From assembly GCF_000299415.1 (NCBI RefSeq), contig NZ_AMPG01000001.1, positions 1,178,001 through 1,242,000 on the forward strand: a DNA stretch of 64,000 nt. Direction: 5' to 3'. Each line of letters opens with the position of its first letter. Position 1 is the first letter of the stretch. The notes under the pieces were generated by a model. The model worked only from the letters and a program-made list of their open reading frames with translations. It was not told the DNA's origin and did no database searches. Below are positions 16,814-47,645 of this stretch, piece by piece. The DNA is from Candidatus Microthrix parvicella Bio17-1 (lineage in GTDB: Bacteria > Actinomycetota > Acidimicrobiia > Acidimicrobiales > Microtrichaceae). A program made the position numbers and the translations under genes.

Positions 16814-16976
16814 TCATTTCGAGGGATTTCAGCCTAGCAACGAGTCCCTCTGCGCCGGGTGGGTCAGAACCCTCACCTCACCGGGGGCGCTTCATGATCG
16901 TCGAAGCGACCGTCATCAACTCAGAGCCTTTTGACGGGACGATTACCTGCTGCTCAGCCCAAAAATTCATCGACAT

Positions 16977-17002: not shown

Positions 17003-17004
17003 CC

Positions 17005-18297: not shown

Positions 18298-18411
18298 GTC
18301 AGTAGTCGCCGCAAACCCGGCCAACAAGATGTCATCAACGCGCACCAGCCCCACCGACCTCGACAATGAGGGTTTGTGTGACCGCCTCTGCGACCACGAC
18401 CGATCGAGGTG

Positions 18412-19440: not shown

Positions 19441-20270
19441 GATTCGAATGCATTCAGGTAGTCGACGGATGCCTCATAGGACCTGTCGATTCGACGCTCA
19501 ATCGACTCCGAGTTGCCGCGCCGATACTGGCTCACGTCGTTGAACGACTTCGGGTCTCCGGTCGGCAGGACGTGCACTGCGATGTTGTCCGGCAGGTTGC
19601 GCAACGCCTCGGTGAAACGATGCCGACGGGAGATCTCGAAGGCCACCATCGCCACCTCCCACGGGTTTGACGGCGGCGCCAACGGCGCTTCCACCCGGCC
19701 GACCTGCAGCACGTAGATGGTGGTCGCACCGTGGGTGATCGCCCGGTCCAAGGGAATCGAGGAGACCAGCCCGCCATCGAGGAAGTGCTCGCCGTCGATT
19801 TCAACCGGGGGAAACATGCCTGGCACGGCCGACGACGCCAGGATGGCGTCAACCAGGGGCCCCGCCGAGAAGTAGTGGGCTGTGGCGTGCTCGATGCTCG
19901 CTGCGACACACTCGAAGCTCACCGCGAGGTCTTCGATGTGTCGAACGGGCAGGATCTGTTCGAGGAGTTCCCGCAGCACCCGGTTGTCGCTCAGGTGGGT
20001 CCCCGATCTGGCGAGGGTGGTCACCTTGGAAAAGACCGAGCCACCAAACACCCCCGAGTGGTCGAGCGTGGTCCACAGCTCGGTCAGCGCCTCGACGCTA
20101 CGAGCGGAAGGGTCTGCGGCGATCATGGCCCCGTTGATGGAACCAATCGAGGTGCCCACGACCAGGTCGGGAATGATGCCGAAATCGATCAGCGCGCCGA
20201 GCATTCCCACCTCGTGTGCACCGAGATCCCCGCCGCCACCCAGGACGAACGCCGTCTCTGTTTCCATCAC
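19437..20270 (-). CDS. patatin-like phospholipase
   Basis: A 277-residue patatin-family acyl hydrolase. The oxyanion glycines are in VLGGGGDLGAHEVG (residues 9-22), the nucleophile elbow is GTSIGS with Ser41, and the catalytic Asp is in FLDGGLVSSIPL. It lacks a signal peptide, so it acts on cytoplasmic or membrane lipids. It is first in a two-gene operon with a PlsC-like acyltransferase, which together could remodel phospholipid chains. Confidence 0.92.
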   Translation of the reverse strand: MMETETAFVLGGGGDLGAHEVGMLGALIDFGIIPDLVVGTSIGSINGAMIAADPSARSVEALTELWTTLDHSGVFGGSVFSKVTTLARSGTHLSDNRVLRELLEQILPVRHIEDLAVSFECVAASIEHATAHYFSAGPLVDAILASSAVPGMFPPVEIDGEHFLDGGLVSSIPLDRAITHGATTIYVLQVGRVEAPLAPPSNPWEVAMVAFEISRRHRFTEALRNLPDNIAVHVLPTGDPKSFNDVSQYRRGNSESIERRIDRSYEASVDYLNAFES

Positions 20271-24846: not shown

Positions 24847-25040
24847 AGCCTGCGACAGGGGCCGAGGAATTACCCGGCCTGCTCGAAGCGGACCCTCCAC
24901 TCAGCGTCGCTCACCTTTTCAACTTCGTAGGTGAAACCCTGCGAGGAGAGCACGCCCATCAGCGGAGTCGGCTCGAAGGAGGCGACCAGCATCAGACCCG
25001 GATATTGCAGCCGGGTAGCGGGTTGTTGGTGGTTTGACGC

Positions 25041-25114
25041 GGCAGGTGCCCCTGCTGGCTGGAAGAATGGAGAGTACGAACAGCTCTATTCGACTAGCGA
25101 GAGGAGCACCTGCC
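25041..25114 (+). promoter_or_regulatory. leader inverted repeat covering the transposase ribosome site (copy 1)
   Basis: GGCAGGTGC (25041-25049) pairs perfectly with GCACCTGCC (25106-25114). The 3' arm starts at the last G of the GAGAGGAG ribosome site and ends 2 bases before the GTG start. In a transcript entering from outside, the hairpin could hide the ribosome site and damp transposase synthesis, as leader structures do in other IS elements. The same pair recurs in copy 2 at 38200-38273. Confidence 0.45.
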
Positions 25115-25116
25115 AG

Positions 25117-26517
25117 GTGAATGCTACAGGCGCGTTGTTTGATGCCGGGGAACTGATCGGACAGCCCCGCCGCCGGAGTGCTTCGGTGAAGGTCAAGGTG
25201 AGCGATGACAAGGTGACCGGGGTGGGCGGGGTGGCGTTGTGGGGACCGATGTTGGACAACCTGAACCTGGTCGGTGTCGCCGATGGGCGCCGGTTGCGGC
25301 CGATCGGGCCTGGCGGCTACACCGGCGGGGAGTGCTATCGGGCGTTGGTCGAGATCCTGTTGGCCGGAGGCGATTTCTTGTCGGACCGGTCCCTGTTGGA
25401 TGGGCCGACCCAACAGTTGCGGGGCGCTCACGTGTTGCCCTCACACGCGACGATGTTCCGGTTTTGTGGCGGAGCCGATTTTGGTCGGGTCCAGAAAGCC
25501 GCGGCGGTGAACCGGACGATGTTGGCTCGGGCGTGGGCGTCGGGTGCGGGACCTTCTGGTGGGATGGTCACGGTTGATCCCGATGCCACGCTGGTCGACA
25601 CCTACGGGCCGGACAAGGAAGGTTCGAAGTTCTCCTACCGGGGCGAGGTTGGCTTGTCACCGCTGATCGGGGTGTGTGGTGAGACCGGTGACGTGCTCGC
25701 GATCCGTGCCCGGTCTGGGAATGCCCATCCGGGCCGGGACAACGCCGGGTTCATTCGAGAGTGTGTGTCGGCGATCCCCGGCCCGGTCCGGGAAACAACG
25801 AACCTGTGGGTCCGTGTCGATTCCGCCGGCTACCAACACGCCGTGTTCGACACCGTCGAGGCGCTGGGTGGGGTGTTCTCCGTGACCGCGCCACAACGGT
25901 CCAACGTGAAAGCGAAAGTCCGGGCGTTGGCCACCAACCCTGACACGCAATGGGTGCCAGCGTTGGCCGGCGAGGCCAAGCGGGGTTCCGAGGTCGCAGA
26001 AACACCTTTCGTGATGGGGCAAGGCAAGACCCGGCGCATGTTGCGGATGATCGTGCGCCGTCAACGCACCAGCGCCGGTGACCAGTTGTCCTTTGATGAT
26101 CTTGACGGTTGGAGGTTCCATGCGATTGTCACGAACCTTCCCGCCCTGTTCGCACCCCCAGCAGAGGTCGAGGCCCACCATCGGCTTCGTGGCGGGATCC
26201 CCGAGGACACCATCCGGCAACTCAAGGAAGACTTTGGGCTGATCCACGCGCCGGTGAAGAACTTCTTCGGGAACTGGTTGTGGTGGCACGCCTCTGTGCT
26301 TGCTCACAACACCGCCCGCTGGGTCCGTCACCTCGGGCTGCCCCCGACGTTCAAACGGTGCCGTGGGAAACGGCTCCGCCTCGCGTTCTTCAATGTCGCA
26401 GCACGAGTTGTCAACCACGCCGGCGGCCTCGAGTTGCGGCTCCCACGATCCCACGCCTGGGCCGACGCGTTCATCGAAGCCCTCACACGCATCCGGGCCC
26501 TGCCCGCGTTCGCCTGA
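25117..26517 (+). CDS. IS1380-family DDE transposase, copy 1
   Basis: 466 residues. VDPDATLVDTYGPDKEGSKF carries the first catalytic Asp, RSGNAHPGRDN follows, and LWVRVDSAGY the second Asp; the C-terminal RLKEDFGL-like stretch (IRQLKEDFGL) probably has the Glu. This order is that of IS1380 transposases. The start is the GTG behind GAGAGGAG; no ATG occurs before this point in the frame. The frame stays open upstream to and beyond the IS end, which matters for copy 2. Confidence 0.92.
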   Translation: MNATGALFDAGELIGQPRRRSASVKVKVSDDKVTGVGGVALWGPMLDNLNLVGVADGRRLRPIGPGGYTGGECYRALVEILLAGGDFLSDRSLLDGPTQQLRGAHVLPSHATMFRFCGGADFGRVQKAAAVNRTMLARAWASGAGPSGGMVTVDPDATLVDTYGPDKEGSKFSYRGEVGLSPLIGVCGETGDVLAIRARSGNAHPGRDNAGFIRECVSAIPGPVRETTNLWVRVDSAGYQHAVFDTVEALGGVFSVTAPQRSNVKAKVRALATNPDTQWVPALAGEAKRGSEVAETPFVMGQGKTRRMLRMIVRRQRTSAGDQLSFDDLDGWRFHAIVTNLPALFAPPAEVEAHHRLRGGIPEDTIRQLKEDFGLIHAPVKNFFGNWLWWHASVLAHNTARWVRHLGLPPTFKRCRGKRLRLAFFNVAARVVNHAGGLELRLPRSHAWADAFIEALTRIRALPAFA

Positions 26518-26843
26518 CCCGGCCAGGCACCCACACACCCAGACTCAGCCCGGACAACCCGACCACACCACAACCTTCTGCCTCACCGCGCCCCAAAACC
26601 AGACAAACACCATTCAACCTCACACCAGAGGCAGCACCCACCCAAACCAGTGGCCTACACGCCGTTCAAGAACCGGGCTGCAATATCCGGGTCAGAGACC
26701 GGCCATCGAGCGAGGCCACGGTCTCCATGATCTTGCCGAACGGCTCCTCCCCACGCTCAAGCATGGGACGCACGTCGAGTAGGACCTCACCAGAGCCTCG
26801 GTCGTCGCTCTCGGTTACTCCGCTCATCACGCCTCCCGCGTTC

Positions 26844-29222: not shown

Positions 29223-30041
29223 GTGGGACGACTCGACGGCAAGGTGGCCATTATCACCGGTGCGGCCAGGGGCATGGGTGAGGCCGAGGCACGGCTGTTC
29301 GCATCCGAGGGCGCCCGGGTGGTGATCGCCGACGTGCTCACCGAGGAGGGCGCAGCAGTGGCAGCCGACATCGGCGAGGCCGCTCGATTTGTGCCGCTCG
29401 ATGTGACCGACGAGGCGGCCTGGCTCGATCTGATGAAAATCACCACCGACGTGTTCGGGTGCCCCGACGTGCTGGTGAACAACGCAGGTGTGCTCGTGCC
29501 GTCACCGATCCGCGAGCTCGAGGTCGAGCAGTTGCGTTACGTGCTCGACGTCAACCTGCTTGGCCCGATCCTTGGAGTAAAGGTTGTGGGAGCGGCCATG
29601 GCCGACGCCGGACGCGGTTCGATCGTCAACGTCTCCTCCACCGGCGGGTTGCTGGGCATGTCGATGATCAGCAGCTATGTCGCGTCCAAATGGGGCCTGC
29701 GCGGCTTCAGCCGATCTGCAGCGATCGAGCTCGGACCCAACGGGGTGCGGGTCAACTCGCTGCACCCCGGCGGCGTGACCACTCCCATGGTTGGCGTGAC
29801 CGACGTTTCCGCGATGGTCGAACCGCCCGGACCCGGTGAGGCCGAATCCAACCCCACCCTGGCCGCATCCGACGCTCAGGGCGCGACCCAACCCATCCGC
29901 CGGTTGGGTCGCCCAATCGAGATCGCGCGGCTGGCGCTGTTTCTGGCATCGGACGAGTCGTCGTACTGCACGGGTGCCGAGTTCGTCGCCGACGGTGGGT
30001 CGGTGGCCGGACAGGATCTGACCGCCACCTTCGGAGGCTGA
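29223..30041 (+). CDS. short-chain dehydrogenase/reductase (classical SDR)
   Basis: 272 residues. The cofactor motif TGAARGMG is at 12-19, NNAG at 86-89, Ser139, and the catalytic Tyr152-x3-Lys156 (YVASK). The C-terminal FLASDESSYCTGAEFVADGG is the usual SDR close. It is an NAD(P)-dependent oxidoreductase of unknown substrate, similar to hydroxysteroid or 3-oxoacyl reductases. The start is GTG 29223; a longer frame to 28998 runs over the divergent gene and is not used. Confidence 0.92.
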   Translation: MGRLDGKVAIITGAARGMGEAEARLFASEGARVVIADVLTEEGAAVAADIGEAARFVPLDVTDEAAWLDLMKITTDVFGCPDVLVNNAGVLVPSPIRELEVEQLRYVLDVNLLGPILGVKVVGAAMADAGRGSIVNVSSTGGLLGMSMISSYVASKWGLRGFSRSAAIELGPNGVRVNSLHPGGVTTPMVGVTDVSAMVEPPGPGEAESNPTLAASDAQGATQPIRRLGRPIEIARLALFLASDESSYCTGAEFVADGGSVAGQDLTATFGG

Positions 30042-30053
30042 ATCGACCCTGGC

Positions 30054-30257
30054 TCAGGAGGCGGCCGGGTACCCCGCCGAGGTCAGCGTCGACCTCACAG
30101 CATCGGGGTCGCCACCCACAACCGTCACGCTCTTCGATGCCACGTCAACCTCGACCGACTGCACGCCGGCCATGGCCCCGACAGCCGATTCGATGGTCGC
30201 CTTGCAATGTTCACAGCTGACGTCGGGCACCTTGAAAGTTGTCTCCTGCTCGGACAC
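30054..30257 (-). CDS. copZ: heavy-metal-associated (HMA) copper chaperone
   Basis: 67 residues forming one ferredoxin-like HMA domain. The metal-binding motif is VSCEHCK (Cys15, Cys18). GVQSVEVDVASKSVTV and a C-terminal AGYPA complete the fold. It would carry Cu(I) to a P-type ATPase or sensor. It stands alone, convergent with the SDR gene. No copper ATPase is in the window. Confidence 0.88.
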   Translation of the reverse strand: MSEQETTFKVPDVSCEHCKATIESAVGAMAGVQSVEVDVASKSVTVVGGDPDAVRSTLTSAGYPAAS

Positions 30258-30364
30258 TGTCGCCTCCTTGAGGGGTGCTGAGGTCGGGTTGGGTGGTTGT
30301 TGGCCACCCGTCTGACAAGTTCAAGACGAATCTACCGACCTGCTGCGGATATCGAGCATCACAT

Positions 30365-32578
30365 TCATGACGGAAGCCAGTGGCCCACCGTTACCGTCAA
30401 CCGGTAGTTCCCATCTCCGAAGTCGAACCCCAGCTCACCATGGACGACACCGCCTGGTTCCTCCCGGAGGATCTTGAAGTTCGGCGAGCCTGCCAGCTGA
30501 TCGGCTCCGAGGAGCGTCGCCGATGCTCTGTCGTTCGCAGACGTATCATCGAGCTCGATGATGGTCACGTCGATCTTGTCGACGTAGGTGATGGACGTGA
30601 TCCAGGGGTCCAGAGTGCGGGAGTCATCGTCGTCAAAGTCGCCCACCTGATCATTGCTGATCTTGATCGTCAGACTCTCGTCGGCGACAAGTTCTACAGC
30701 AATGTCGTCTGAACCCCACTCGTTCCCCAAGAAGCCATCGGTTTCGTCTTCGCAGAAGAGTGTGATCTCACTGTTCGGAATGCCAGATCCCCGCCCGTAG
30801 AGCACGGAGAGATCGGTGCGCCAGATCGCTGTCAGGTCGCGCGCGTCCGGGTCGAGACGCCTCGCGACCGCGAAGAAGTGGCCGTTGTCGGCGGTCCCGA
30901 ACCGAACCGACGGGGTGTTCGATCCCGGGCCGTCGGTTCCCAACACCGACCATTGGTTGCCATCTCGCAGTTCCACGACGGAGAGTTCAAATCCCGCTGC
31001 GTCGGCACCGCCGAGTTGGACTTCCACCGTTTGCTCGGCGCCGGTGTCCACCTTCACGGTGTCGAACATGAACCACAACGCGTTTTCGTCGGAGAAGGGC
31101 GTGCTGGAATCGTCGTTCGCAAAGTTGGGGCTGCTCGGCGCCTCAACAGCGGCTTCGACTGAAGGCAACAGGCCAATCGCATCGAACCTATCCAGCCCTT
31201 CGTTTCGATGTAAGCGAAGCTCAAAGCCGGACTTCGAATCACGCACAAGTTCCGAGACCCGCAGAAAGAACGGAACATCGGGAAACACGAACCGCCGCCC
31301 GCGTTCGGACTCCGAAATCCCGAAGGGAGGCATCGGGGTGGACAGGTTCGTCGCAGCGAAGGCTGCCAGCTCGGGAGTCCCGTACTTCTGGTGCAGGTCG
31401 ATCTCGTAGCTCCCCTTCTCCTCCACGCGGAACCACCACATGCTCCCCGAGTAGATCCCCCCGCTCTCGGAGGCGTCCGGCGGAGCTGAGATCACCTGGG
31501 CGAGCGCTACCGAGTTGTGTTCGTCTTGATGGGCCAAGTCGACCCTGACGGGGCGATGGTCGCTGGTGTACGAGCTCGAGGGGTCGAGGATCTCGAGGGC
31601 GAGGCATTGGTGTTGCATCTCGAGGCGACCCGCAAACGAGGCCGGGTGCAGGAAGTAGTCAAGCCGTTGCTCCTTCGGCTCGTAGCGGGCCGGCGCAGTG
31701 TGGCCTGGATCGCGGCCGTTGTCGTCACCGCACTGCTCGATGCCCCATGCTTCTACCAGCGAATCGGTGAAGAACGCTCCGGGGTTGTAGAAGAGATTGC
31801 TCCACTCTTCGGCGCCGAGAGGGGTCCCGCCGGGCGTCGCGGGGTTCGTGTTGGCTCCGACGATGTTGAGGTCGCCGAGCAGGTACACCTCCTCCTGGAA
31901 CGGGGCTGCCGTCCCCACGCAGGTCTCGATGAACCGCTGCATCTGGGCCATCTGGTCGACGCGGGTCTCGGCGTGTTCGCCGACGGCGTCCGAATCGGCC
32001 TGCGTGTGAGACGCGAACACGTGGACCCGGTCAGCACCTGAGCGGAGTCGGGCGTAGATCATCCCCTTGGCGGCATGGACGTCATTACCGGCCGTCTCGC
32101 TGAAGGGTTCATAACCAACGAACGGCACTCCATTCGGGAACACACCGGCGAATTCGGGAGGCGCCGGGACCGTGTCGAATGGCAACCGGCTGAAGAGCAT
32201 CAGGCCGCTGTCCTCCCAGATCCCTTCCAGCAACGACCAACCGATGAGCCCCAGCCCTACCAGCTGCGAAATCAGCGATGGAGCGACGAGCAAGCCGACT
32301 CCGAGCAGCTGCAGGCCGAGTTGGTCTTCGTCGGCCTTCGTGATCATGCTGCCAAAGCGGCCCCCAAGCCGATCAGCGAGGATCTCGCGGGCATCCTCGT
32401 CGAACACTTCGTTGAGGAGCACGATGTCGTAGTCCTGGGGGCTCGCCAGGATCCGGTCTGCGATCGAATGAGCACGAGGTTCGGCGTTCTCGGACGGAAA
32501 GAGGGACTTGTCGGCACCAGCCTCCATCCCCCAGGACCGCAGCTGGGTATTGAACGTCAGGATGCGTAAGGGCTGCAT
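30365..32578 (-). CDS. endonuclease/exonuclease/phosphatase-family protein, sphingomyelinase-like, with large C-terminal extension
   Basis: 737 residues. The N-terminal ~390 residues are an EEP domain: ILTFNTQ (Asn10), LLNEVFD (Glu57), FASHTQADS, LLGDLNIVGAN and SDHRPV hold the expected Mg-binding and catalytic residues, and the layout recalls neutral sphingomyelinases. The other ~350 residues are beta-rich with acidic stretches and may be two sandwich domains. A hydrophobic segment near residues 85-110 could contact a membrane. No signal peptide. Last gene of a four-gene operon with a phospholipase C-like gene, hence a lipid phosphodiesterase guess. A frame extending to 32968 runs over the propeller gene. 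Confidence 0.75.
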   Translation of the reverse strand: MQPLRILTFNTQLRSWGMEAGADKSLFPSENAEPRAHSIADRILASPQDYDIVLLNEVFDEDAREILADRLGGRFGSMITKADEDQLGLQLLGVGLLVAPSLISQLVGLGLIGWSLLEGIWEDSGLMLFSRLPFDTVPAPPEFAGVFPNGVPFVGYEPFSETAGNDVHAAKGMIYARLRSGADRVHVFASHTQADSDAVGEHAETRVDQMAQMQRFIETCVGTAAPFQEEVYLLGDLNIVGANTNPATPGGTPLGAEEWSNLFYNPGAFFTDSLVEAWGIEQCGDDNGRDPGHTAPARYEPKEQRLDYFLHPASFAGRLEMQHQCLALEILDPSSSYTSDHRPVRVDLAHQDEHNSVALAQVISAPPDASESGGIYSGSMWWFRVEEKGSYEIDLHQKYGTPELAAFAATNLSTPMPPFGISESERGRRFVFPDVPFFLRVSELVRDSKSGFELRLHRNEGLDRFDAIGLLPSVEAAVEAPSSPNFANDDSSTPFSDENALWFMFDTVKVDTGAEQTVEVQLGGADAAGFELSVVELRDGNQWSVLGTDGPGSNTPSVRFGTADNGHFFAVARRLDPDARDLTAIWRTDLSVLYGRGSGIPNSEITLFCEDETDGFLGNEWGSDDIAVELVADESLTIKISNDQVGDFDDDDSRTLDPWITSITYVDKIDVTIIELDDTSANDRASATLLGADQLAGSPNFKILREEPGGVVHGELGFDFGDGNYRLTVTVGHWLPS

Positions 32579-32589
32579 GGTGGCTCCGA

Positions 32590-33483
32590 TCAGGCGAAGT
32601 GAGCGATGGCGATGCCGACGGGTTCGTCGAACCGTCTGGGCTCGCCCTCGGCAACGATGGAGGACAGCGTCGTGTTGGGGCTCCACCCGCCGGCTCCCTC
32701 GGTGACGAACTGAACGATCACGGATGCGCGTGGATCGGTGACATAAACCACGTTGCTCGACTCGCTCGCCATGGCCGACGGCATCACGAGGACCCCTGCA
32801 GCTCCATGTTCCACAAAGGTCTCGACACCCGTGCCCGCATCGAGGATCTCGACCAACGCCGAGCGTCTGACATCGACGACGAGCACCGTGTCTCCGATCG
32901 CGCAGACTCCGACGGGTGCAGCGAGTGGCACCCCCCCGACGAACGGCCCGATGGCAGACCAACCCCACCCTCCGATCTCGTCGATACGAACGACCCGGCC
33001 GGCACGTCCGTCAGTGACGTAAATGCGACCAGCGGCATCGTGGGCGAGGCTGGTCGGAGCGAGGAAACCAATGGCATCGGGATCTGCCGATGTAGGGCCC
33101 GGCAACGGACCCAACGCGGCCCAACCCGAACCGGACAGCGAATCGACACGGACAACCCGGCGATTACCGGTGTCGGCAATCCAGATCACACCCTTCTCGT
33201 CCACGTGGACCGCAGTCGGTGTGTCGAACTCGTCGACCCCTGAACCAAACGTGCCGTACTCCTGCCACGATCCGACAAAATCGACCGGATCGAATGACAC
33301 GATCCGATGGTTGCCGGCGTCAGCGACCAACAACTGGTTCACATCATCGGAGGCCAGCCCACGCGGTCGTTCAAACTCACCGATGCCGCTCCCACGTGCA
33401 CCAAAGCGCTCATCGACATCAGCCAGATCGCCCGGGAGCACGATGACCTCGCAGCGCCGACGATCGCTCACGTAAACCTTCAT
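32590..33483 (-). CDS. NHL-repeat beta-propeller protein
   Basis: 297 residues made of about six NHL-like blades: repeated units such as NQLLVADAGNHRIVSFD, GVIWIADTGNRRVVRVD and GRIYVTDGRAGRVVRID at roughly 45-residue spacing. Propellers of this type bind proteins or ligands; no catalytic site is evident. It overlaps the upstream gene by ATGA and lies 11 bases before the EEP gene. No signal peptide. Its place between two predicted lipases suggests a scaffold or targeting role, which is inference. Confidence 0.8.
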   Translation of the reverse strand: MKVYVSDRRRCEVIVLPGDLADVDERFGARGSGIGEFERPRGLASDDVNQLLVADAGNHRIVSFDPVDFVGSWQEYGTFGSGVDEFDTPTAVHVDEKGVIWIADTGNRRVVRVDSLSGSGWAALGPLPGPTSADPDAIGFLAPTSLAHDAAGRIYVTDGRAGRVVRIDEIGGWGWSAIGPFVGGVPLAAPVGVCAIGDTVLVVDVRRSALVEILDAGTGVETFVEHGAAGVLVMPSAMASESSNVVYVTDPRASVIVQFVTEGAGGWSPNTTLSSIVAEGEPRRFDEPVGIAIAHFA

Positions 33484-34679
33484 GACTGAGTCACCACAAT
33501 GCTGTAACCGCCGATCACGACGCCGTCGCGCAGTGCCTCGAACCGGAGCAGGTGCGTGTCCGCCGGATCTTCCGACATTGCTGCGGCCAACGCCCGGCCC
33601 GTCAGCTCATCGGCCTCGATCAGGCGAGCGAGGGCAACTGCGGACCGCCCTCGCTTCGTGGGTTCGCCTTCGCTCTCGGGGTTCTGACCGAAGCGGTAGA
33701 GGCGGCTGCCACGCTCAGGAGCGGTGACCCACCCGATGGTTCCACGGGTGCGAGAGGCGCTCTCCTCCTGCTCGGATTCTCCCCGGTCGTGCCTCACCAA
33801 AAGATGGGTAGGTGGGCGCGGGCGGGGAATGCCCACCCAATCCCCGCCGCCGGCCAGCGCGTGTGGTGCGAGCACGTCGGTCACCGTTTCAAGGCCGTGA
33901 ACCAACTGCATCGAGTCGTTGGGGCCGATCTGCCGGCCGAGCCAGAGAAGAAGTGGGTGGAGATCGAGATCGGGGCGGGCCACGTGGAGGTTGAGCTGGC
34001 CCACGTGACGGTCCGTGGCGGCGTCGAACCCGACCGTGGCGCGATCCATCAGACACGATACGACCGCGAGCAGGCACTCGTGTCCCTCGTTTTCCCACCT
34101 CGGGATCCACGGCTCGGCGATGCGGACGACGCTCATACATGCGGTCGACGTGCGGTCGGCAAGATCGAAACCTGCATTCCCGATCAGCTCCGGAGGATGG
34201 GGCGAACCGGCGCCGAAGGAGAAGGCCGGGTTCGCCCAGTAAGCATCAACGCGCGCTCCGATCGCGGCGAGGCGACCCAGATTCCACACCCGGACAAAGA
34301 TCGTGTGCGGTTCGCCCAGCCGGGGCGTGAGCGTTGCAGCCTGAGCGTCGATCGAGTCCACGATGCCGGGAACGACGATGATGTCGGGCGACTGCCAGAA
34401 GTAGGGCATAGGCGGTTCTCGTACGCCGTGATCGCCGGTCATCGCCCGGATGAGGAGGTACGGGAGCAACTGGTCTTGGCGGGGACGCCGACCGGGCGCT
34501 CGCTCATCGACCCAGGCGAGGACGTGCCTGAGCGCGTCCTCCTCGTCAGCCTCATCGGGCAGGTGGTGGAGCGGTTGTAACGGATGTTTACGAGTGGTGG
34601 TTGGATCGCCGCCGCGAGCGAGACGATCCTCCTCCGGCGTGAGTTCGGGATGGTCGAAGTGCTCACGGATGTCGCTCAC
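33480..34679 (-). CDS. protein with CARDB/Ig-like domain, function unknown
   Basis: 399 residues from a GTG 1 base after the preceding stop; an ATG at 34730 would overlap the phospholipase gene by 50 bases. The N-terminal ~110 residues are charged and possibly helical. SPDIIVVPGIVDS opens a beta-rich region with HTIFVRVWNLGRLAA and ECLLAVVSCLMD, the look of a CARDB-type sandwich. The C-terminal ~150 residues are another beta-rich part. I recognise no enzyme motif. It is second in the operon and is coupled at both ends. Confidence 0.65.
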   Translation of the reverse strand: MSDIREHFDHPELTPEEDRLARGGDPTTTRKHPLQPLHHLPDEADEEDALRHVLAWVDERAPGRRPRQDQLLPYLLIRAMTGDHGVREPPMPYFWQSPDIIVVPGIVDSIDAQAATLTPRLGEPHTIFVRVWNLGRLAAIGARVDAYWANPAFSFGAGSPHPPELIGNAGFDLADRTSTACMSVVRIAEPWIPRWENEGHECLLAVVSCLMDRATVGFDAATDRHVGQLNLHVARPDLDLHPLLLWLGRQIGPNDSMQLVHGLETVTDVLAPHALAGGGDWVGIPRPRPPTHLLVRHDRGESEQEESASRTRGTIGWVTAPERGSRLYRFGQNPESEGEPTKRGRSAVALARLIEADELTGRALAAAMSEDPADTHLLRFEALRDGVVIGGYSIVVTQS

Positions 34680-34680
34680 G

Positions 34681-36990
34681 TCATTCCTTCCGTCCGGCCG
34701 GGTCGAGACCCCCGGCAGCGACGATGTCATCCGGGGTCACCTCGGTGCCGCTCAAGTCGCCCTCGTGTGGGTTGCAACCGGGGTCAACGCCTTCGAGATA
34801 GTGGATCGCCAGATGGGTGTGCGCGTCGTAGACCCGAGCGTCGGTGTTCCCCTGGTAGCCCTCGGGTGGGGTGCACGGCTTACCGAACTTGAACGTGCCA
34901 TCAAACTCAGATCCGTCCGGTGTGGTGGTGCCCGTCATACGGTTCCAATCCCAACAGTGATACCCGTACCCCCGGTCGGCATCGAGGTTGTAGTCGGGAT
35001 GCTGGTCGCCCGACGTCATCCGGCCGATCACGTGGAGGCCATAATCGACCGGGTCGCCGAGGTGCTCGCCCTTGCCGAGGTGGAAATCGCATGCTTCCTC
35101 GGTGGCGTGCGGAGTCTTTGCAGCGTCGAAAAGCCTGCGGGCTTCGGTGTGGCCGGGGTCGTTTCCGAAAAGCGCCGTCGCGTCCTGCCATTGCTGCCAC
35201 GGACCGGCATGGGTCAGCGATGGCTCCCAGCCGTTGACGGTTCCGTCGTTGTGCCGGTGTGGGTACCGCCAAGGTCGCAAGAACTCCGAGGGAGCCTTGC
35301 CGTCAGCCCAGGAATCACCGACGATCGCCCCGAACACCTGTTGAAATGTGGACGGATCGTCACGGATAATCGAGCGGGGGTAGGCGGCATCTGCGTCCCG
35401 TGGGGAGCCCGCTTGGCGGCCCGACGGCTCGTCCGGGACTGGGAAGGGTGGCACGCCGGTCGGGCTCTTCAGCATCGCTGCCAGGTTCGGACCCGCAGCC
35501 GTCGAGATACCCAGGCGGACGAGGCCTTCGGAAATCTCCTCGTGCTTCGGCATGAGGAAGCCCGTCATCACGAGTGGTTGTCGAGCGGCAAGCATCGCGC
35601 TCCACATCGGGACCACGACGTTTTCGTACAGAACTTCACGGACGGGATACGTGGCGAGATCATTGATCACGGCGACAGGCAGGGTGCCAAACCAAACCCC
35701 AAGCTCTGCCAGATACAAAGGCCAGCTCAACACCGCCAAGAGCATGTCGAGCAGATCGAAGTCGTCGTCGTCGTCACCTCCACGTGCCGGATCGTCATGT
35801 CCGCCGAACCCTGGAGGCGACGGAGGACTGTGATCGTTGAAGACAGGGGGCGCCGTCGGTCGGCGGGGTGAGTATCCCGAAGTGCTGGTGTACTTGACGT
35901 ACTTGTACAGCGTCCACCAAGTGTCCTGAATGGCGTCCACGCTGGGGCGGCCACTCGATCCGTCATGGAAGCTTGCCGAGCCCTGCGTGAGCAGCCTCGG
36001 GCCGTCGTCGCCGTAGACGTCGGCCATCGTGTCGATGATGAGACGACACAGGTCGGCAGGAAGGTCGAGGGTGTCGAGGTCCCACAGCTCCTCGCGTTCG
36101 TGATCTGCGGCCGCTGAGTCATCCGTCGGATAACCCGGCAGGCCGGTGAAATAGTCGTACGCAGGCGCATCTGAAGCGCCCAGGTAGGGGGCCTGCTGTC
36201 CGTTTCGGAACGCAAGTCGGAAGTGCAGGGCAGCGGTGTCCATTTCCCCGTAAGGCTCGGTCCCGCCGTGCTGCGCGTCGTAGACCCGAGCGTCCATGTG
36301 GTTCTCGACCAGGTGGTGACGCTGCCAATGCAGGCGGAACGGGCCACCACATTTGGCATTCACGAACGAGTGCCCGGTGACATCGGTTGCACAGTGACTC
36401 ATCCAGCCGAGGGCGAAGGCTTTATGTTGTTCGGTGGTCGCGTTCTCGTACAGCTTGCGGGCAAACTCAAACGTCTTTCGGTAATGGAACATGTCAGACC
36501 AGTAAAAGCCCGAATCCCCCCAGCCTTTCGGAACGCCACTGGTGAGCAGGCCGAACCAGTCGTAGAGCTTGGTGAGTAGTCCGAGAATCGCATCCTTGAT
36601 CAGCTCGGCGAGCTCCTGCAGCATCGTTCCGATCTCTCTTGCAACACCACCGCTGATCTGGTTGATCACGTTGCCCACACCGCTGATCACTGGGGCTGCC
36701 CACTCGTTCCAGCGCTTCAGAAACTCCTCGTCGAGCACTTCCCAGACATCTCGAATCCAGTCGATGATCGTGCGGAGCACGTTTCCCTTGTCGCCGGAGA
36801 AGTCGGGCAGCAAGAAGAAGATGTCGGGACCTAGCGCGCCCGCGGCCAGGTAGTTGCGCCACTTGTAGGCGATCTCTCCGAGATCGATGGCCCCGTCCTT
36901 ACCGATCGGGAAGTCGATGGGGACATCGCCGTTGCGGAGTTGGTCGGCCGTCTTTTTCGCGGCTTCCATATGAATGTACCAGCCAGGCAT
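34681..36990 (-). CDS. zinc-dependent phospholipase C-like protein
   Basis: 769 residues. The start MPGWYIHMEAAKKTADQL and AGALGPDIFFLLPD match the N-terminus of PF00882-type zinc-dependent phospholipase C proteins. GWMSHCATDVTGHSFVNA followed by RHHLVENHMDARVYD supplies the His/Asp metal ligands. A second half with a proline- and aspartate-rich linker (about residues 395-425), a hydrophobic segment and repeated His-rich stretches (DARVYDAHTHLAIHYLEG) is unusual; DARVYDA recurs in both halves. No signal peptide is seen. GGAGG precedes the ATG. First gene of the four-gene operon. Confidence 0.75.
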   Translation of the reverse strand: MPGWYIHMEAAKKTADQLRNGDVPIDFPIGKDGAIDLGEIAYKWRNYLAAGALGPDIFFLLPDFSGDKGNVLRTIIDWIRDVWEVLDEEFLKRWNEWAAPVISGVGNVINQISGGVAREIGTMLQELAELIKDAILGLLTKLYDWFGLLTSGVPKGWGDSGFYWSDMFHYRKTFEFARKLYENATTEQHKAFALGWMSHCATDVTGHSFVNAKCGGPFRLHWQRHHLVENHMDARVYDAQHGGTEPYGEMDTAALHFRLAFRNGQQAPYLGASDAPAYDYFTGLPGYPTDDSAAADHEREELWDLDTLDLPADLCRLIIDTMADVYGDDGPRLLTQGSASFHDGSSGRPSVDAIQDTWWTLYKYVKYTSTSGYSPRRPTAPPVFNDHSPPSPPGFGGHDDPARGGDDDDDFDLLDMLLAVLSWPLYLAELGVWFGTLPVAVINDLATYPVREVLYENVVVPMWSAMLAARQPLVMTGFLMPKHEEISEGLVRLGISTAAGPNLAAMLKSPTGVPPFPVPDEPSGRQAGSPRDADAAYPRSIIRDDPSTFQQVFGAIVGDSWADGKAPSEFLRPWRYPHRHNDGTVNGWEPSLTHAGPWQQWQDATALFGNDPGHTEARRLFDAAKTPHATEEACDFHLGKGEHLGDPVDYGLHVIGRMTSGDQHPDYNLDADRGYGYHCWDWNRMTGTTTPDGSEFDGTFKFGKPCTPPEGYQGNTDARVYDAHTHLAIHYLEGVDPGCNPHEGDLSGTEVTPDDIVAAGGLDPAGRKE

Positions 36991-37252
36991 GAGGCCTCCA
37001 ACGAGCCATCGACAAAAAGCACGTATTCCAATAGATTTAGATTGCCGACCGCGGAACGAAAGCGCTTACACTTTACCAGACTCATCATATATTGCAATGT
37101 CTTTATAGACTGCCCTTGGCTGGAAAGACGGCGTGATCCATGGGTGGTCGCGGTGGGCACGCAACCTGAGCTCAAACGGCTCGACCTAGACTTGGCCGAC
37201 CGCCACCACGCCAAGGGCGGAACGCCAAGCATCACCGCGCAGGGACCAGATC
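36991..37252. promoter_or_regulatory. divergent promoter region, AT-rich
   Basis: 262 bases between the phospholipase operon (leftward) and cbpA (rightward). The stretch 37010-37110 is clearly more AT-rich than the surroundings (AATAGATTTAGATTG, CATATATTGCAATG, CTTTATAG) and probably holds the promoters. I see no HspR-type inverted repeat. Confidence 0.5.
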
Positions 37253-38155
37253 ATGAGCGACTCCACCGACTACTACGAGGTGCTCGGAGTCGATCGCACT
37301 GCGACGAGCGACGAGATCAAGCGTGCCTATCGCAAACTGGCCCGAACGCATCACCCCGACATCAACAAGGATCCATCGGCCGAAGCGCGGTTCAAGGAAA
37401 TCGGCCAGGCCAACGAGGTGCTCTCAGACCCCGGGTTGCGCGCAAGGTACGACGCGTTCGGTGCCGACTTCCGCCATGTACCCGACGATGTCGATCCAGA
37501 GGAATGGGCCAACGCCCAGCGCATGCGCGACCAGGGCGGCCGGCCTTCGCCGGGCCAGCAGCAAAACGTCGACGACGCCGCGTTCCAGGACTTCTTCGAG
37601 GACCTCCTTCGCGAACAAGGGAGAACCGCTCGCGGGTGGGGTCCGATCCCGGGTGCTGACCAGCGGGCGGGCATCACCTTGAGCCTCGAGGATGCATTCC
37701 ACGGCGGGCGTCGGTCGCTCACGATGGCCGGGCCCACCGGGGAACGGACCATCCAGGTGAAGATCCCCGCCGGGGTGACCGACGGCCAGACGATCCGCCT
37801 GCCGGGACAAGGCGCCCGTGGGTCCGAGGGTGCCCCGCCGGGTGACCTGTTCCTTCACGTCACCATCGAGCCCGATCCCAGGTTCCGGCTGGATGGCCGG
37901 GACATCGAGACCGACCTTCCGCTGGCACCATGGGAAGCGGTGCTGGGTGCCACGGTGCCCGTCGGGGGTCCGGGTGGCACGACCAAGATCAAGGTGTCTC
38001 CGGGAACGTCGACCGGTAAGCGGCTGCGCATTCGCGGCCAGGGGCTCCCCGGGCCGGCGACCGCCGGCGACCTCTATGCCCGCGTTCAGATCGTCGTGCC
38101 CGAACAGTCGTCCCCAGACGACCGGCGCCTGTACGAAGAGCTGGCGGAGCTCAGT

Positions 38156-39850
38156 CCCGGATATTGCAGCCGGGTAGCGGGTTGTTGGTGGTTTGACGCG
38201 GCAGGTGCCCCTGCTGGCTGGAAGAATGGAGAGTACGAACAGCTCTATTCGACTAGCGAGAGGAGCACCTGCCAGGTGAATGCTACAGGCGCGTTGTTTG
38301 ATGCCGGGGAACTGATCGGACAGCCCCGCCGCCGGAGTGCTTCGGTGAAGGTCAAGGTGAGCGATGACAAGGTGACCGGGGTGGGCGGGGTGGCGTTGTG
38401 GGGACCGATGTTGGACAACCTGAACCTGGTCGGTGTCGCCGATGGGCGCCGGTTGCGGCCGATCGGGCCTGGCGGCTACACCGGCGGGGAGTGCTATCGG
38501 GCGTTGGTCGAGATCCTGTTGGCCGGAGGCGATTTCTTGTCGGACCGGTCCCTGTTGGATGGGCCGACCCAACAGTTGCGGGGCGCTCACGTGTTGCCCT
38601 CACACGCGACGATGTTCCGGTTTTGTGGCGGAGCCGATTTTGGTCGGGTCCAGAAAGCCGCGGCGGTGAACCGGACGATGTTGGCTCGGGCGTGGGCGTC
38701 GGGTGCGGGACCTTCTGGTGGGATGGTCACGGTTGATCCCGATGCCACGCTGGTCGACACCTACGGGCCGGACAAGGAAGGTTCGAAGTTCTCCTACCGG
38801 GGCGAGGTTGGCTTGTCACCGCTGATCGGGGTGTGTGGTGAGACCGGTGACGTGCTCGCGATCCGTGCCCGGTCTGGGAATGCCCATCCGGGCCGGGACA
38901 ACGCCGGGTTCATTCGAGAGTGTGTGTCGGCGATCCCCGGCCCGGTCCGGGAAACAACGAACCTGTGGGTCCGTGTCGATTCCGCCGGCTACCAACACGC
39001 CGTGTTCGACACCGTCGAGGCGCTGGGTGGGGTGTTCTCCGTGACCGCGCCACAACGGTCCAACGTGAAAGCGAAAGTCCGGGCGTTGGCCACCAACCCT
39101 GACACGCAATGGGTGCCAGCGTTGGCCGGCGAGGCCAAGCGGGGTTCCGAGGTCGCAGAAACACCTTTCGTGATGGGGCAAGGCAAGACCCGGCGCATGT
39201 TGCGGATGATCGTGCGCCGTCAACGCACCAGCGCCGGTGACCAGTTGTCCTTTGATGATCTTGACGGTTGGAGGTTCCATGCGATTGTCACGAACCTTCC
39301 CGCCCTGTTCGCACCCCCAGCAGAGGTCGAGGCCCACCATCGGCTTCGTGGCGGGATCCCCGAGGACACCATCCGGCAACTCAAGGAAGACTTTGGGCTG
39401 ATCCACGCGCCGGTGAAGAACTTCTTCGGGAACTGGTTGTGGTGGCACGCCTCTGTGCTTGCTCACAACACCGCCCGCTGGGTCCGTCACCTCGGGCTGC
39501 CCCCGACGTTCAAACGGTGCCGTGGGAAACGGCTCCGCCTCGCGTTCTTCAATGTCGCAGCACGAGTTGTCAACCACGCCGGCGGCCTCGAGTTGCGGCT
39601 CCCACGATCCCACGCCTGGGCCGACGCGTTCATCGAAGCCCTCACACGCATCCGGGCCCTGCCCGCGTTCGCCTGACCCGGCCAGGCACCCACACACCCA
39701 GACTCAGCCCGGACAACCCGACCACACCACAACCTTCTGCCTCACCGCGCCCCAAAACCAGACAAACACCATTCAACCTCACACCAGAGGCAGCACCCAC
39801 CCAAACCAGTGGCCTACACGCCGTTCAAGAACCGGGCTGCAATATCCGGG
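38156..39850 (+). mobile_element. IS1380-family insertion sequence, copy 2
   Basis: 1,695 bp, by eye identical to copy 1, in the same orientation. The flanking 5-bp direct repeat is TCAGT (38151-38155 and 39851-39855). Both copies chose a TCAG(A/T) target. It separates cbpA from cbpM. The leader inverted repeat is at 38200-38273. Confidence 0.95.
38276..39676 (+). CDS. IS1380-family DDE transposase, copy 2
   Basis: 466 residues, same sequence as copy 1 at 25117-26517, with its own GTG and GAGAGGAG site. Here the reading frame is also open from the cbpA start, so translation from the chaperone gene could run into it without a stop. Confidence 0.92.
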   Translation: MNATGALFDAGELIGQPRRRSASVKVKVSDDKVTGVGGVALWGPMLDNLNLVGVADGRRLRPIGPGGYTGGECYRALVEILLAGGDFLSDRSLLDGPTQQLRGAHVLPSHATMFRFCGGADFGRVQKAAAVNRTMLARAWASGAGPSGGMVTVDPDATLVDTYGPDKEGSKFSYRGEVGLSPLIGVCGETGDVLAIRARSGNAHPGRDNAGFIRECVSAIPGPVRETTNLWVRVDSAGYQHAVFDTVEALGGVFSVTAPQRSNVKAKVRALATNPDTQWVPALAGEAKRGSEVAETPFVMGQGKTRRMLRMIVRRQRTSAGDQLSFDDLDGWRFHAIVTNLPALFAPPAEVEAHHRLRGGIPEDTIRQLKEDFGLIHAPVKNFFGNWLWWHASVLAHNTARWVRHLGLPPTFKRCRGKRLRLAFFNVAARVVNHAGGLELRLPRSHAWADAFIEALTRIRALPAFA

Positions 39851-39878
39851 TCAGTGACTTCGACCCGAGGAGCGGCTG

Positions 39879-40196
39879 ATGGCATCCGAGATCGAGCCGG
39901 CCGAACGCATCGAGTTCGAGGTGTTCTCCCGGGTGTGTGACCTCCATCCCGAGCTGGTCGAACGTTTCATCGTTCTCGGACTCCTCGAGACCGTCAGCGA
40001 CGACGAGGGCCGGCTCTGGTTTGAACGACGCCAGGTTGCGGCGGTGGGCCGTATTCGTCGACTTCGCTCGGGGCTCGGGTTGAGCTACTCGGCGATCGCA
40101 GTCGTAGCGGAACTGATCGACCGCATCGACGAACTCGAGTCCGAGCTGATGCGCCGTGGCGACCACGAACCGAGCCCTGGAAGAGACCATGCCTGA
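39879..40196 (+). CDS. cbpM: CbpM-like MerR-type chaperone modulator
   Basis: 105 residues: a MerR-like helix-turn-helix fold (FSRVCDLHPELVERFIVLGL, LWFERRQVAAVGRIRRLRSGLGL) with a C-terminal helix. CbpM binds the J-domain of CbpA and inhibits it. Originally its ATG overlapped the cbpA stop (TGATG); IS copy 2 now parts the two, so its expression must rely on read-through or on the IS right end. It overlaps the amidase start by 8 bases. Confidence 0.85.
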   Translation: MASEIEPAERIEFEVFSRVCDLHPELVERFIVLGLLETVSDDEGRLWFERRQVAAVGRIRRLRSGLGLSYSAIAVVAELIDRIDELESELMRRGDHEPSPGRDHA

Positions 40197-41643
40197 CAAC
40201 CCCGCAGACAAGCCGGACACCGGCCCCGTTTGGATGGGTACAGATGACGCCCTCGGCGATCACGACGCCGTTGGGGTTGCCGACCTGATTGCGTCAGGCG
40301 AGATCTCCGCTGCAGAAGCGGTCGACGCGGCCATCGAGCGCGCCGAGCGGGCGGAGCCGCTGATCGCAGCCTTCGCTACGACCGACTTCGACCGCGCCCG
40401 CCGGCGGGCGGGTGGTCCCGTCGAGGGCCGGTTCGGCGGTTTGCCCACCGCCATCAAAGACCAAACAGCGGTGGCCGGGCTGCCCCTTGGATTCGGCTCC
40501 CAAACACTCGCCGACGCAGAACCCTCCGCCACATCGTCGCCGATCACCGAAATCTTCGAAGCGGTGGGCACCATCAGCCTCGGCACCACCACCTTGCCGG
40601 AGTTCGGCCTCACCTCGTCGTCGGATTTCCACCACGGGCCACCGACTCACAACCCGTGGAACCGTGACCACATCGCCGGCGGCTCCTCAAGCGGGGCTGC
40701 CGCCTTGGTCGCCGCCGGAGTGCTACCCCTGGCGCACGGAGGCGACGGTGGCGGCTCGATCCGTATTCCTGCCGCCGCATGCGGGCTGGTCGGCCTCAAG
40801 CCGAGTCGGGGCCGACTTCCCCACGAGAACGATGTCGCTCCGCTGCCCGTGAAGATCTCCGCCTACGGCGTGCTCTCCCGCAGCGTTGCCGATCAGTGTG
40901 CATTTCTGGCGGCCGCGGAACAGCACTTCCCCCAGCCTGCCCTGACGCCGGTCGGCCTCGTCGACCGCCCACTCGACCGGCCCCTGCGCATCGGCGTGTT
41001 AACCACCAGCCCGGTCAACCGAACCCCCTCACCGTCGGTGACCGCTGCGGTCAACGAGACCGCCTCGCTGCTGGAGCATCTTGGCCACCACGTGACCTAC
41101 ATCGACGAGTCAGACGAGGCGACCACCCAGGCGTTTGGTGACGACTTCGTGCTGTACTGGGCCTTCCTCGCCGGAGCCCTCGCCATTGGGGGAAAGAAGC
41201 TGATCAACCCGGCCTTCGACTCGTCAAAACTCACGTCGTTCACCCGGGGACTCGCAGGCCACGCCCGCCGAAACATCCATCTGATTCCTGGCGCGATCCG
41301 GCGGCTCAAGGCGGCGCCGGAGCTCTACCACCAGCAATTTGGAGCATGTGACGTGGTGCTCTCCCCAACCGTGTCAGACCCGGCACCAACCCTGGCCCAC
41401 CTCGGCAAGGACCTCGACTACCAGACCCACATGGACCGCCTGATGCGGTGGGCCGCCTATACCCCGCTCCACAACGTCGTCGGTGCACCCGGCATCCACC
41501 TTCCTGTGGGGCTCGACGCCGACCTCACCTTGCCGGTCGGGGTCCATTTCGCCGCCCGGGTCGGGCAGGAACGACTGCTGTTGGAACTCGCACTCCAGGT
41601 TGAACAGGCCAGCAGCTTCCCGAAGCTCTCCGACTTCGTCTGA
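40189..41643 (+). CDS. amidase (amidase signature family)
   Basis: 484 residues. The Ser-cisSer-Lys triad is visible: Lys90 in LPTAIKDQ, the GGSSSGAAALVAAG segment at 164-177, and Ser190 in GDGGGSIRIPA. It hydrolyses a C-N amide bond; the substrate is unknown. GGAAGAG lies 6 bases before ATG 40189; a longer frame starting at 40156 inside cbpM is not used. It overlaps cbpM and was part of the cbpA-cbpM transcript. Confidence 0.93.
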   Translation: MPDNPADKPDTGPVWMGTDDALGDHDAVGVADLIASGEISAAEAVDAAIERAERAEPLIAAFATTDFDRARRRAGGPVEGRFGGLPTAIKDQTAVAGLPLGFGSQTLADAEPSATSSPITEIFEAVGTISLGTTTLPEFGLTSSSDFHHGPPTHNPWNRDHIAGGSSSGAAALVAAGVLPLAHGGDGGGSIRIPAAACGLVGLKPSRGRLPHENDVAPLPVKISAYGVLSRSVADQCAFLAAAEQHFPQPALTPVGLVDRPLDRPLRIGVLTTSPVNRTPSPSVTAAVNETASLLEHLGHHVTYIDESDEATTQAFGDDFVLYWAFLAGALAIGGKKLINPAFDSSKLTSFTRGLAGHARRNIHLIPGAIRRLKAAPELYHQQFGACDVVLSPTVSDPAPTLAHLGKDLDYQTHMDRLMRWAAYTPLHNVVGAPGIHLPVGLDADLTLPVGVHFAARVGQERLLLELALQVEQASSFPKLSDFV

Positions 41644-45641: not shown

Positions 45642-45959
45642 TTAAGCGACGATGCGCTTCAGCAGGTGGCGGTTCTTCGCCACGGACCCCGGGAGGATGC
45701 TGAAATGACCCTGACCGTCATCATCGATGGCGGACACCCGCACAACAGCCGTCGCTTGGCGGTTGCCAGCAAGCAGCATTGCTCCTGGGCGGACACAGCC
45801 GGGGCTGTTGGCGTCGGTCAGAGCGCTCAGTCGCTTGCGCCTGACGAGTCGGCGACCGAAACCAGTCGGAGCCTGGCATCTACGCGAATCAGCTGGCGCT
45901 GATGGCAGCCTCGATCTCGTGGCGATGGCAAGGGTCGCAGGCGGCCCAGCGACGTTCAT
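45642..45959 (-). CDS. doubtful hypothetical frame
   Basis: A 105-codon frame overlapping the abiEii 3' end by 71 bases. Its last ~50 residues (GCVRPGAMLLAGN, FSILPGSVAKNRHLL) look protein-like, and may be the tail of an older gene cut by whatever created this island. The N-terminal part looks random. The rest of 45561-45888 holds nothing else I can support. Confidence 0.25.
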   Translation of the reverse strand: MNVAGPPATLAIATRSRLPSAPADSRRCQAPTGFGRRLVRRKRLSALTDANSPGCVRPGAMLLAGNRQATAVVRVSAIDDDGQGHFSILPGSVAKNRHLLKRIVA

Positions 45960-46773
45960 CTTCGTCGAGGGCTACGAGGAACTCGAATCGTTCTCGGACG
46001 ACTCTCTCCCAGCGTCTGAGGTCCACCGGTTGGGTCAGCTTGCCGATCGAGTCGGGAGCGAAGTCGCCTTCGGATCTGGGTTCGAGAATGTCCGCTGGGT
46101 CGGCCGGTTTGTCGCCGCGGCCATCGTCGACAACGTCACCCCACACCTTGAGTACCCACAGCCGTCGCACGAGAGCTTCGTCCATCGCTCCGGAAGCGAA
46201 TTGAGCGAGGTCATAGACGTCGCGGCCAAGCGCTACGCGCCGGTAGCGAGCGAGCTTCTCCGCGCACGCCTCCGCCTCGGCTATCACGGGAAGCTCCGGT
46301 AGGGCGATCTCGTACACCCGGTGTATAGACAGATGAACGAAGCCGATGCGCTCGGGCCGCAGAATCAGGGGCCGCCGCGCGAACTCCACCGATGTGGCGA
46401 CATCGGGCTGGCCGAGCTGAGGATGTCGGACCTGCATGGTCCAGTGCCGCCCGTCGCCGCGAGTGGACTGGAGCGAATACTGAAACCCGGCGACGCTCGC
46501 ACCATCGATGGACTCGCACACCTCCAGAACGGTGTCGTCATCAGGGGCGACGAAGTCGAGATCCGTGGAGAATCGTCCCCCACTGCCAAGTCGGCACTTC
46601 CGGAGCGCAGTTCCGCCCTTGAACACCAAGGTGCCGTCATCGAAGTGACCGAGCTCGGCCAGTAACCACAGCAGATGATCCTGCGCGACGTCGAGTAGCG
46701 CCGCACCGTAGGTGTCGGCGCGGCCCGCTCCATGTAGTCGAACTAGCGCTTCGGTCAGCGTGCCAGCGGCCAT
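45889..46773 (-). CDS. abiEii: AbiEii nucleotidyltransferase toxin
   Basis: 294 residues from the ATG at 46773. The nucleotidyltransferase motif is FKGGTALRK (about 51-59) with FSTDLDF (69-74), and EKLARYRRVALGRDVYDLAQF is the helix typical of AbiEii/AbiGii (DUF1814) toxins. In AbiE systems this enzyme transfers nucleotides to tRNA and arrests growth upon phage infection. The start overlaps the antitoxin stop (TGATG); a GTG one codon upstream is an alternative. Confidence 0.9.
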   Translation of the reverse strand: MAAGTLTEALVRLHGAGRADTYGAALLDVAQDHLLWLLAELGHFDDGTLVFKGGTALRKCRLGSGGRFSTDLDFVAPDDDTVLEVCESIDGASVAGFQYSLQSTRGDGRHWTMQVRHPQLGQPDVATSVEFARRPLILRPERIGFVHLSIHRVYEIALPELPVIAEAEACAEKLARYRRVALGRDVYDLAQFASGAMDEALVRRLWVLKVWGDVVDDGRGDKPADPADILEPRSEGDFAPDSIGKLTQPVDLRRWERVVRERFEFLVALDEDERRWAACDPCHRHEIEAAISAS

Positions 46774-47645
46774 CACGCCTTCCCCAGTTGATCTTGCAAC
46801 GGTGCGATCAGGTGATCATTGACGCTGAATCGTGATGACCATGCTGCGGTAGCGCCGTCGCCAAAGGACGCTACCGGCATCGACCTGCTTGGACGCCGGT
46901 CGAGTAGATCAACAGCGTCGTCGCTTCTGCCTCCGCGGTGCAGAAGGTACGCGGCACGTTGCCATGCGGAGGCTGACTGACCGCCGAGCAGGCGCTCGAT
47001 CTTGTCGGTGTCACAGTCCGATGCCAAGACATCGAGTTGGGGAACCAGGTCGGCCCAGACCCGAAACGACGCGGGCCTGGCACCCAACTGGACCACCAGC
47101 GCTTCAGGACCGAAGGCCGGGAGCCCAGCGGCCCAGTTGGTCAGGTCCAGCCCCTTGCGACGAAGGAGACGAGAGTTGGGCACGAACTCGCTGGTTTTTT
47201 CGCCCGCCCAGCTGAGCCGTACGAGCGAGACGTAGCTCCGCAGTCCGTGCGGAACGCGCTCGTTCGGCGGCAGCCAGACCGCGATCGTCCCGCCGAAGTT
47301 GCGGGGGAGGTAGCCAAGGTGCCAAGCCGCCGCCTCTCCTGCGAGAGCGAACGCGGCATCGGGTTCGCGCGCCTTCCAAGCCCGTAGATCGATGTATGGG
47401 TCGGTGACGTTGGCCTCCCCCGCCGGCACGAACGCCCACACGCCTTTGAGATGCAAGCTCGCGAACCAGCCAAGCTGCTGAAGGTCGCGGGCGGTCCTTT
47501 CTAGGTCCCGACCGACTCCAAGTTCCTCAAGGCGGCCGGCGAGATCCTGTCGCGTGACGACTGCCGGACGATCCCGAGAGAGAACCGCAATCAGATCCGC
47601 TGCCCACCCTGGGATCGAACGTGAAGCACCACCTGTTCTGCTCAT
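46773..47645 (-). CDS. abiEi: AbiEi-family antitoxin (type IV)
   Basis: 290 residues. An N-terminal winged helix (VVTRQDLAGRLEELGVGRDLERTARDL) is followed by the C-terminal domain (GEAAAWHLGYLPRN, WLPPNERVP, SRLLRRKGLDLTNW). AbiEi represses its own promoter and counteracts AbiEii without binding it. It is the first gene of the pair and is translationally coupled to the toxin. An inverted repeat 34 bases upstream is a candidate self-operator. Confidence 0.88.
   Translation of the reverse strand: MSRTGGASRSIPGWAADLIAVLSRDRPAVVTRQDLAGRLEELGVGRDLERTARDLQQLGWFASLHLKGVWAFVPAGEANVTDPYIDLRAWKAREPDAAFALAGEAAAWHLGYLPRNFGGTIAVWLPPNERVPHGLRSYVSLVRLSWAGEKTSEFVPNSRLLRRKGLDLTNWAAGLPAFGPEALVVQLGARPASFRVWADLVPQLDVLASDCDTDKIERLLGGQSASAWQRAAYLLHRGGRSDDAVDLLDRRPSRSMPVASFGDGATAAWSSRFSVNDHLIAPLQDQLGKA

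Follow-up and report, generated by a model that had tools for sequence, protein, structure and literature searches.

Four tightly packed genes in the genome of Candidatus Microthrix parvicella Bio17-1 raise the question of what two predicted phosphodiesterases, both lacking a signal peptide, are doing in one cluster with a beta-propeller and a putative beta-sandwich protein. The genes are located in a stretch of 64,000 nucleotides (the window, to which all coordinates without a locus name refer), and the earlier note had tentatively read them as a four-part system attacking or remodelling membranes. The analysis did not support that reading. It supported instead a conserved unit consisting of a phospholipase C-like enzyme and the protein encoded directly downstream of it, with the other two genes as a lineage-specific extension.

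Layout of the gene cluster

The four genes and the region upstream of them are as follows:

36990-34681, minus strand: PLC, a PF00882 phospholipase-C-like protein, 769 aa
34730-33480, minus strand: CARDB-like partner, 416 aa (start ATG 34730) or 399 aa (start GTG 34679)
33483-32590, minus strand: NHL beta-propeller, 297 aa, without signal peptide
32578-30365, minus strand: EEP (endonuclease/exonuclease/phosphatase) protein, sphingomyelinase-like, 737 aa from ATG 32578
36991..37252: divergent intergenic spacer that separates the operon from a cbpA/dnaJ-like gene and probably holds the promoter

An open reading frame check of the window confirmed the cluster at these coordinates, with all four genes on the minus strand and tightly packed. 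The CARDB-like and NHL genes overlap by 4 nt, and the NHL and EEP genes are separated by a gap of 11 nt. At the junction between the PLC and the CARDB-like partner the overlap amounts to 50 nt if ATG 34730 is the start. GTG 34679 follows directly after the PLC stop codon and has GGAAGGA ahead of it, and the homology to the nearest relative starts only downstream of this GTG, which is the likelier start. The PLC is translationally coupled to the partner, and the arrangement supports one transcription unit for the four genes, as proposed from their overlaps and gaps of at most 11 bases.

Codon-position composition supported the four as real genes. For the PLC and the partner, the two for which it was calculated, dN/dS against the nearest relative was about 0.2-0.35, and these are thus genes under purifying selection. 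No sigma-70-like site was found on the minus strand of 36991..37252, and no Rfam match in 29900-40300. By inspection, none of the four proteins displayed a signal peptide, in agreement with the earlier note.

An IS1380-like element (PF13701 transposase) is located at 37253-39676 (+), near the 3′ end of the cbpA/dnaJ-like gene, whose frame reads through into the transposase and yields an 807-aa DnaJ-transposase open reading frame. The element is flanked by a TCAGT target duplication and has eight near-identical copies in the genome. A second of these copies, at 24997-26695 (+), is identical over 1699 nt and carries its own TCAGA duplication. Because each of the two flanking copies has its own 5-bp target duplication they are separate insertions, and a composite transposon around the operon was ruled out. 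An AbiEi/AbiEii type IV toxin-antitoxin pair was also present in the window (45889-47645, minus strand).

Predicted metal site, N-terminus and extra length of the PLC

The PLC scored 27.4 bits against PF00882, above the curated cut-off of 26.8, and 11 of the 12 PLC homologue rows matched the same family (best 9.4e-11), the exception being a C-terminal fragment. Eight predicted metal residues were identified: H7, D56, H169, H199, D203, H207, H225 and E229. The first seven are invariant in all 11 rows that have an N-terminus, and position 229 is Glu, or Asp in two of these rows. When short PF00882 proteins were aligned to the PLC by profile, their HxxxDxxxH motif and H...E pair fell on those of the PLC. 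The assignment of these residues to individual zinc ligands, which we take from Bacillus cereus PLC and P1 nuclease, is presumably valid here and draws also on that alignment.

The missing signal peptide had been regarded as an anomaly for a fold that is usually secreted, a view that a sample of 30 PF00882 loci from 296 genomes of the phylum did not uphold. Approximately 24 of the 30 begin with (M/V/L)-P-x4-H (22 found by a script and two by eye), a count into which Pro is partly built, as the script sought Pro at position 2. Four others have a Sec-type leader that ends before W-x4-H with identical spacing, and two were left unclassified. Leaderless PF00882 proteins are thus common, mostly as short proteins, and since they make up the majority of the sample a leaderless PLC is to be expected and needs no secretion route.

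Independently of the script, Pro2 was found in 10 of the 11 PLC rows, the eleventh being given from residue 3 on. In all rows the distance from Pro2 to His7 equals the five residues between a free N-terminus and the first ligand His. Methionine aminopeptidase removes Met before Pro. Mature S1 nuclease begins with a Trp whose main chain is a ligand of the zinc cluster (PMC5201275). With Met1 removed, Pro2 would become the N-terminus that coordinates zinc, and judged from the sequences it is probably the mature zinc-binding residue of the leaderless members, in the place of Trp1 of the secreted ones. The puzzle of a secreted-type lipase without a signal peptide would then turn into a testable rule, which would extend to many unstudied short leaderless PF00882 proteins.

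At 600-920 aa the PLC subfamily is considerably longer than most of the sampled PF00882 members (about 250-430 aa). The extra length has three sources: an insertion (about residues 66-142), a long segment (about residues 413-475) and the C-terminal half, in which D670, D672, R673, W680 and D681 are conserved. The features discussed here are:

36565..36795, minus strand: helical insertion in the PLC catalytic region (about residues 66-142)
35566..35754, minus strand: helical, moderately hydrophobic PLC segment (about residues 413-475)
36274..36294, minus strand: first DARVYDA (residues 233-239), adjoining a conserved metal-site motif
34822..34842, minus strand: second DARVYDA (residues 717-723), not conserved in homologues

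Hydrophobicity of the PLC segments is moderate, with a maximum of 1.58 on the 19-residue scale. An AlphaFold model, built from an alignment without the row from a plasmid record, had a mean pLDDT of 53, with confident prediction restricted to the core (residues 1-60 and about 170-210). Foldseek returned no PDB fold match with this model, which is too poor for a conclusion to be drawn. The repetition of DARVYDA in both halves of the protein, noted earlier, is real and identical over 21 nt, but does not reflect a duplicated domain: the halves have no homology to each other (blastp E 0.22) and the homologues lack the second copy.

Conservation of the pair and its two additional genes

The partner had no Pfam match, and the earlier CARDB-like label was not borne out, as six partner homologues gave no match to CARDB (PF07705) at E <= 10 within HMMER's filters. 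Its AlphaFold model (pLDDT 47) contained a plausible beta-sandwich at about residues 116-250, for which the structure matches were weak (best E 0.017, none below E 0.01). Weaker matches of the partner profile in L052, L053 and L054 were rejected as belonging to different proteins that carry a similar domain and do not adjoin a PLC. In the genome G329, a second partner-like leaderless protein (L052:5991-8467, minus strand) has a 4-nt overlap with a 496-aa protein that has a membrane segment.

Conservation of the four genes was investigated in genome contigs, viral contigs, phages and plasmids, and in taxonomic samples (248 genomes of the order and 396 of the phylum for the PLC, the same 396-genome level for the partner, and 296 of the class and 316 of the phylum for the EEP protein). 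Throughout the order and phylum samples and these collections, the PLC-partner pair was the only part of the set that recurred. Nine PLC loci were found in the scan of genome contigs, and G329 was added by the phylum sample, in which the PLC was present in three of 396 genomes and a full-length partner in two, both of them PLC carriers. The two genes are adjacent in seven genomes of Actinomycetota, Hydrogenedentes and Bacteroidia: that of the window, G616, L013 (a Mycobacterium MAG), L014 (a Hydrogenedentes MAG), L015 (a Bacteroidia MAG), L016 (a Mycobacteriaceae MAG) and G329. A partner detectable by HMM was thereby found directly downstream in 7 of the 9 PLC genomes of these groups. PLC and partner overlap by 4 nt in L014 and L025 and are separated by 0 nt in L013, 3 nt in L038 and 54 nt in L015, a locus with a short partner frame close to the contig end.

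The closest relative is G616 (PLC 66% and 52% over its two pieces, the gene being split between two contigs), in which a dienelactone-hydrolase-like gene is located downstream instead of the NHL and EEP genes. A subtilase follows the pair in L013. At the order level the PLC was present in only two other genomes, G033 and G083, neither with a detectable partner. The outcome for the proposed gene set was accordingly mixed: two of the genes co-occur widely and the metal residues are conserved, but the other two genes do not follow, as neither NHL nor EEP was found at any PLC locus other than that of the window.

In two Deltaproteobacteria loci a different protein occupies the partner slot, 44 nt downstream of a leaderless PLC:

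L018:10001-12915: PLC and partner-slot protein
L019:7623-10537: PLC and partner-slot protein

This partner-slot protein has a twin-arginine-type start (RRQFLK; PF10518 E 0.05, below the cut-off) and shares with the partner only a short segment of the type WNxGxxxAxG. A Ruegeria plasmid encodes yet another, 176-aa protein 10 nt downstream of its PLC. Against the partner profile these slot proteins align over no more than about 18 residues, and homology is not proven. From its start motif, the deltaproteobacterial pair may be considered a candidate for Tat hitchhiking, as a lead only.

The NHL protein matched PF01436 (2.7e-17) and the NHL domain of TRIM71 (3e-41). The EEP protein matched PF03372 (9.8e-8) and resembles sphingomyelinases of known structure, with the catalytic motifs present at positions 10, 57, 191, 235-238 and 340-341 (N10, E57, H191, D236, N238, H341). 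Since it reached only 48.7 bits (6.7e-13) against the TIGR03395 sphingomyelinase cut-off of 248.2, it is termed sphingomyelinase-like and is not a member of that family. Two parts of the EEP protein stand out:

30365..31501, minus strand: C-terminal extra part (about residues 360-737), without family match
32225..32323, minus strand: hydrophobic insert in the catalytic domain (about residues 86-118)

The former corresponds to the extra part of some 350 residues already noticed. The insert is absent from a Streptomyces-type sphingomyelinase and contains a 19-residue segment with a mean hydropathy of 2.02; its parallel to the hydrophobic inserts of the PLC is suggestive only. The EEP protein had no full-length relative among the other genomes sampled, 295 at the class level and 315 at the phylum level. 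A match in G382 proved to be a transporter, hit by chance through the hydrophobic insert, and phage families gave only a weak match, to a family whose function is not known. In both the PLC and the EEP protein the metal-phosphodiesterase folds and their site residues are thus retained, whereas the identity as lipid phosphodiesterases, which the earlier note had proposed, is a prediction from sequence.

Interpretation and comparison with known systems

The reading that we prefer, with a probability of about 0.5, is that the PLC acts as a metal phosphodiesterase in the cytoplasm, facing the membrane and complexed with its partner, and that this lineage has added the NHL and EEP proteins. Its core would be a two-gene module of a leaderless metal phosphodiesterase (PF00882, the phospholipase C-S1/P1 nuclease fold) and a coupled beta-sandwich partner, which probably binds the PLC, stabilises it and covers its hydrophobic insertions. 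With its two helical and in part hydrophobic insertions the enzyme would be directed to membranes, so that a phospholipid is its likely substrate, and cleavage would take place in the producer's own cytoplasmic membrane or on intracellular lipid. The substrate could alternatively be a nucleic acid or nucleotide, since the fold also covers nucleases. In the window lineage the operon would add the NHL protein as an interaction platform and the EEP protein, so that two phosphodiesterases are made together.

It is possible, if doubtful, that the pair is the sole functional unit and that the NHL and EEP genes are recent, functionally unrelated and co-transcribed by chance. The other PLC loci without NHL or EEP, the different downstream gene of G616 and the lack of full-length EEP relatives would fit such a view, but the 4-nt overlap and the 11-nt gap point to selection for expressing the genes jointly. 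Furthermore, the EEP protein and the PLC are both leaderless phosphodiesterase folds with hydrophobic inserts, and the subtilase of L013 is a third hydrolase placed after the pair. A lipid-attacking toxin set against competitors or predators, released by lysis or a non-classical route, appears unlikely. Both enzyme families include secreted cytolysins, and the Tat-type signal on the deltaproteobacterial slot protein suggests export in one lineage; with Pseudomonas PlcH-PlcR there is a known case of an accessory-protein gene adjoining that of a PLC (PMC5150637). However, no toxin or defence family was matched (none by PADLOC), other lineages have no leader, and with leaderless PF00882 proteins being so common the trait is no hint of release by lysis. 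Also rather improbable is a broader scheme, in which these proteins would form a family of membrane phosphodiesterases not described before, leaderless and dependent on the partner. The partner would serve as chaperone or targeting subunit and recruit interchangeable hydrolases (EEP here, the subtilase in L013), and in some lineages Tat would export the folded complex by means of a signal that only the partner carries.

A set of lipid genes is located at 14493-20270 (-) of the window, comprising WS/DGAT (14493-15929), an alpha/beta hydrolase-like gene, an acyltransferase (18412-19440) and a patatin (19437-20270). These have been considered for a role of the operon in intracellular lipid recycling, whereby diacylglycerol would be passed to storage-lipid synthesis, which we hold to be very improbable: WS/DGAT, acyltransferase and patatin lie about 10-16 kb from the operon end and are not adjacent to it, and genes of this kind are often found in Actinomycetota. 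That the proteins are cargo of a contractile injection system, as had also been suggested, is hardly to be expected. The fold-related Het-C domain has been reported in such systems (PMC3482391), but none of the 12 PLC homologue rows had a Het-C Pfam match. Phage_sheath_1 (PF04984) was absent from the window genome and from nine of the ten other carriers (one positive among 11), in a search limited to this phage-type sheath family.

No named system with this gene set was found, as the earlier note had anticipated, nor, among the papers searched, any that joins a zinc-dependent phospholipase C with CARDB. Pseudomonas PlcH is not known to be related to the PF00882 fold. Its likeness to the present PLC is one of layout only, an enzyme encoded beside an accessory protein, and it differs in carrying a Tat signal (PMC6085387). 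Het-C is reported to have the PLC/S1-P1 active site and the HxxxDxxxH motif (PMC3482391); the motif is shared by the PLC, but as it was present in all PF00882 proteins examined it is not diagnostic for Het-C, whose Pfam family the PLC homologues do not match. With TIGR03395 (PDB 7cne, 2ddr) the EEP protein shares the fold and the NTQ, NE, KG, HTQ, GDLN and DH motifs, but it starts with MQPLRILTFNT without a signal peptide and adds the hydrophobic insert and the 350-residue C-terminal part. The partner resembles CARDB in its predicted beta-sandwich and differs in that much of it lies outside the sandwich. The PLC, finally, has the PF00882 score, the eight predicted metal-ligand positions and the N-terminus-to-His spacing in common with its fold, and is set apart by the two helical insertions, a C-terminal half without family match (conserved NxDxDRGxxxxxWD) and a dedicated partner gene. 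It represents a rare subfamily of a well-known fold, and the partner a matching protein family that Pfam lacks.
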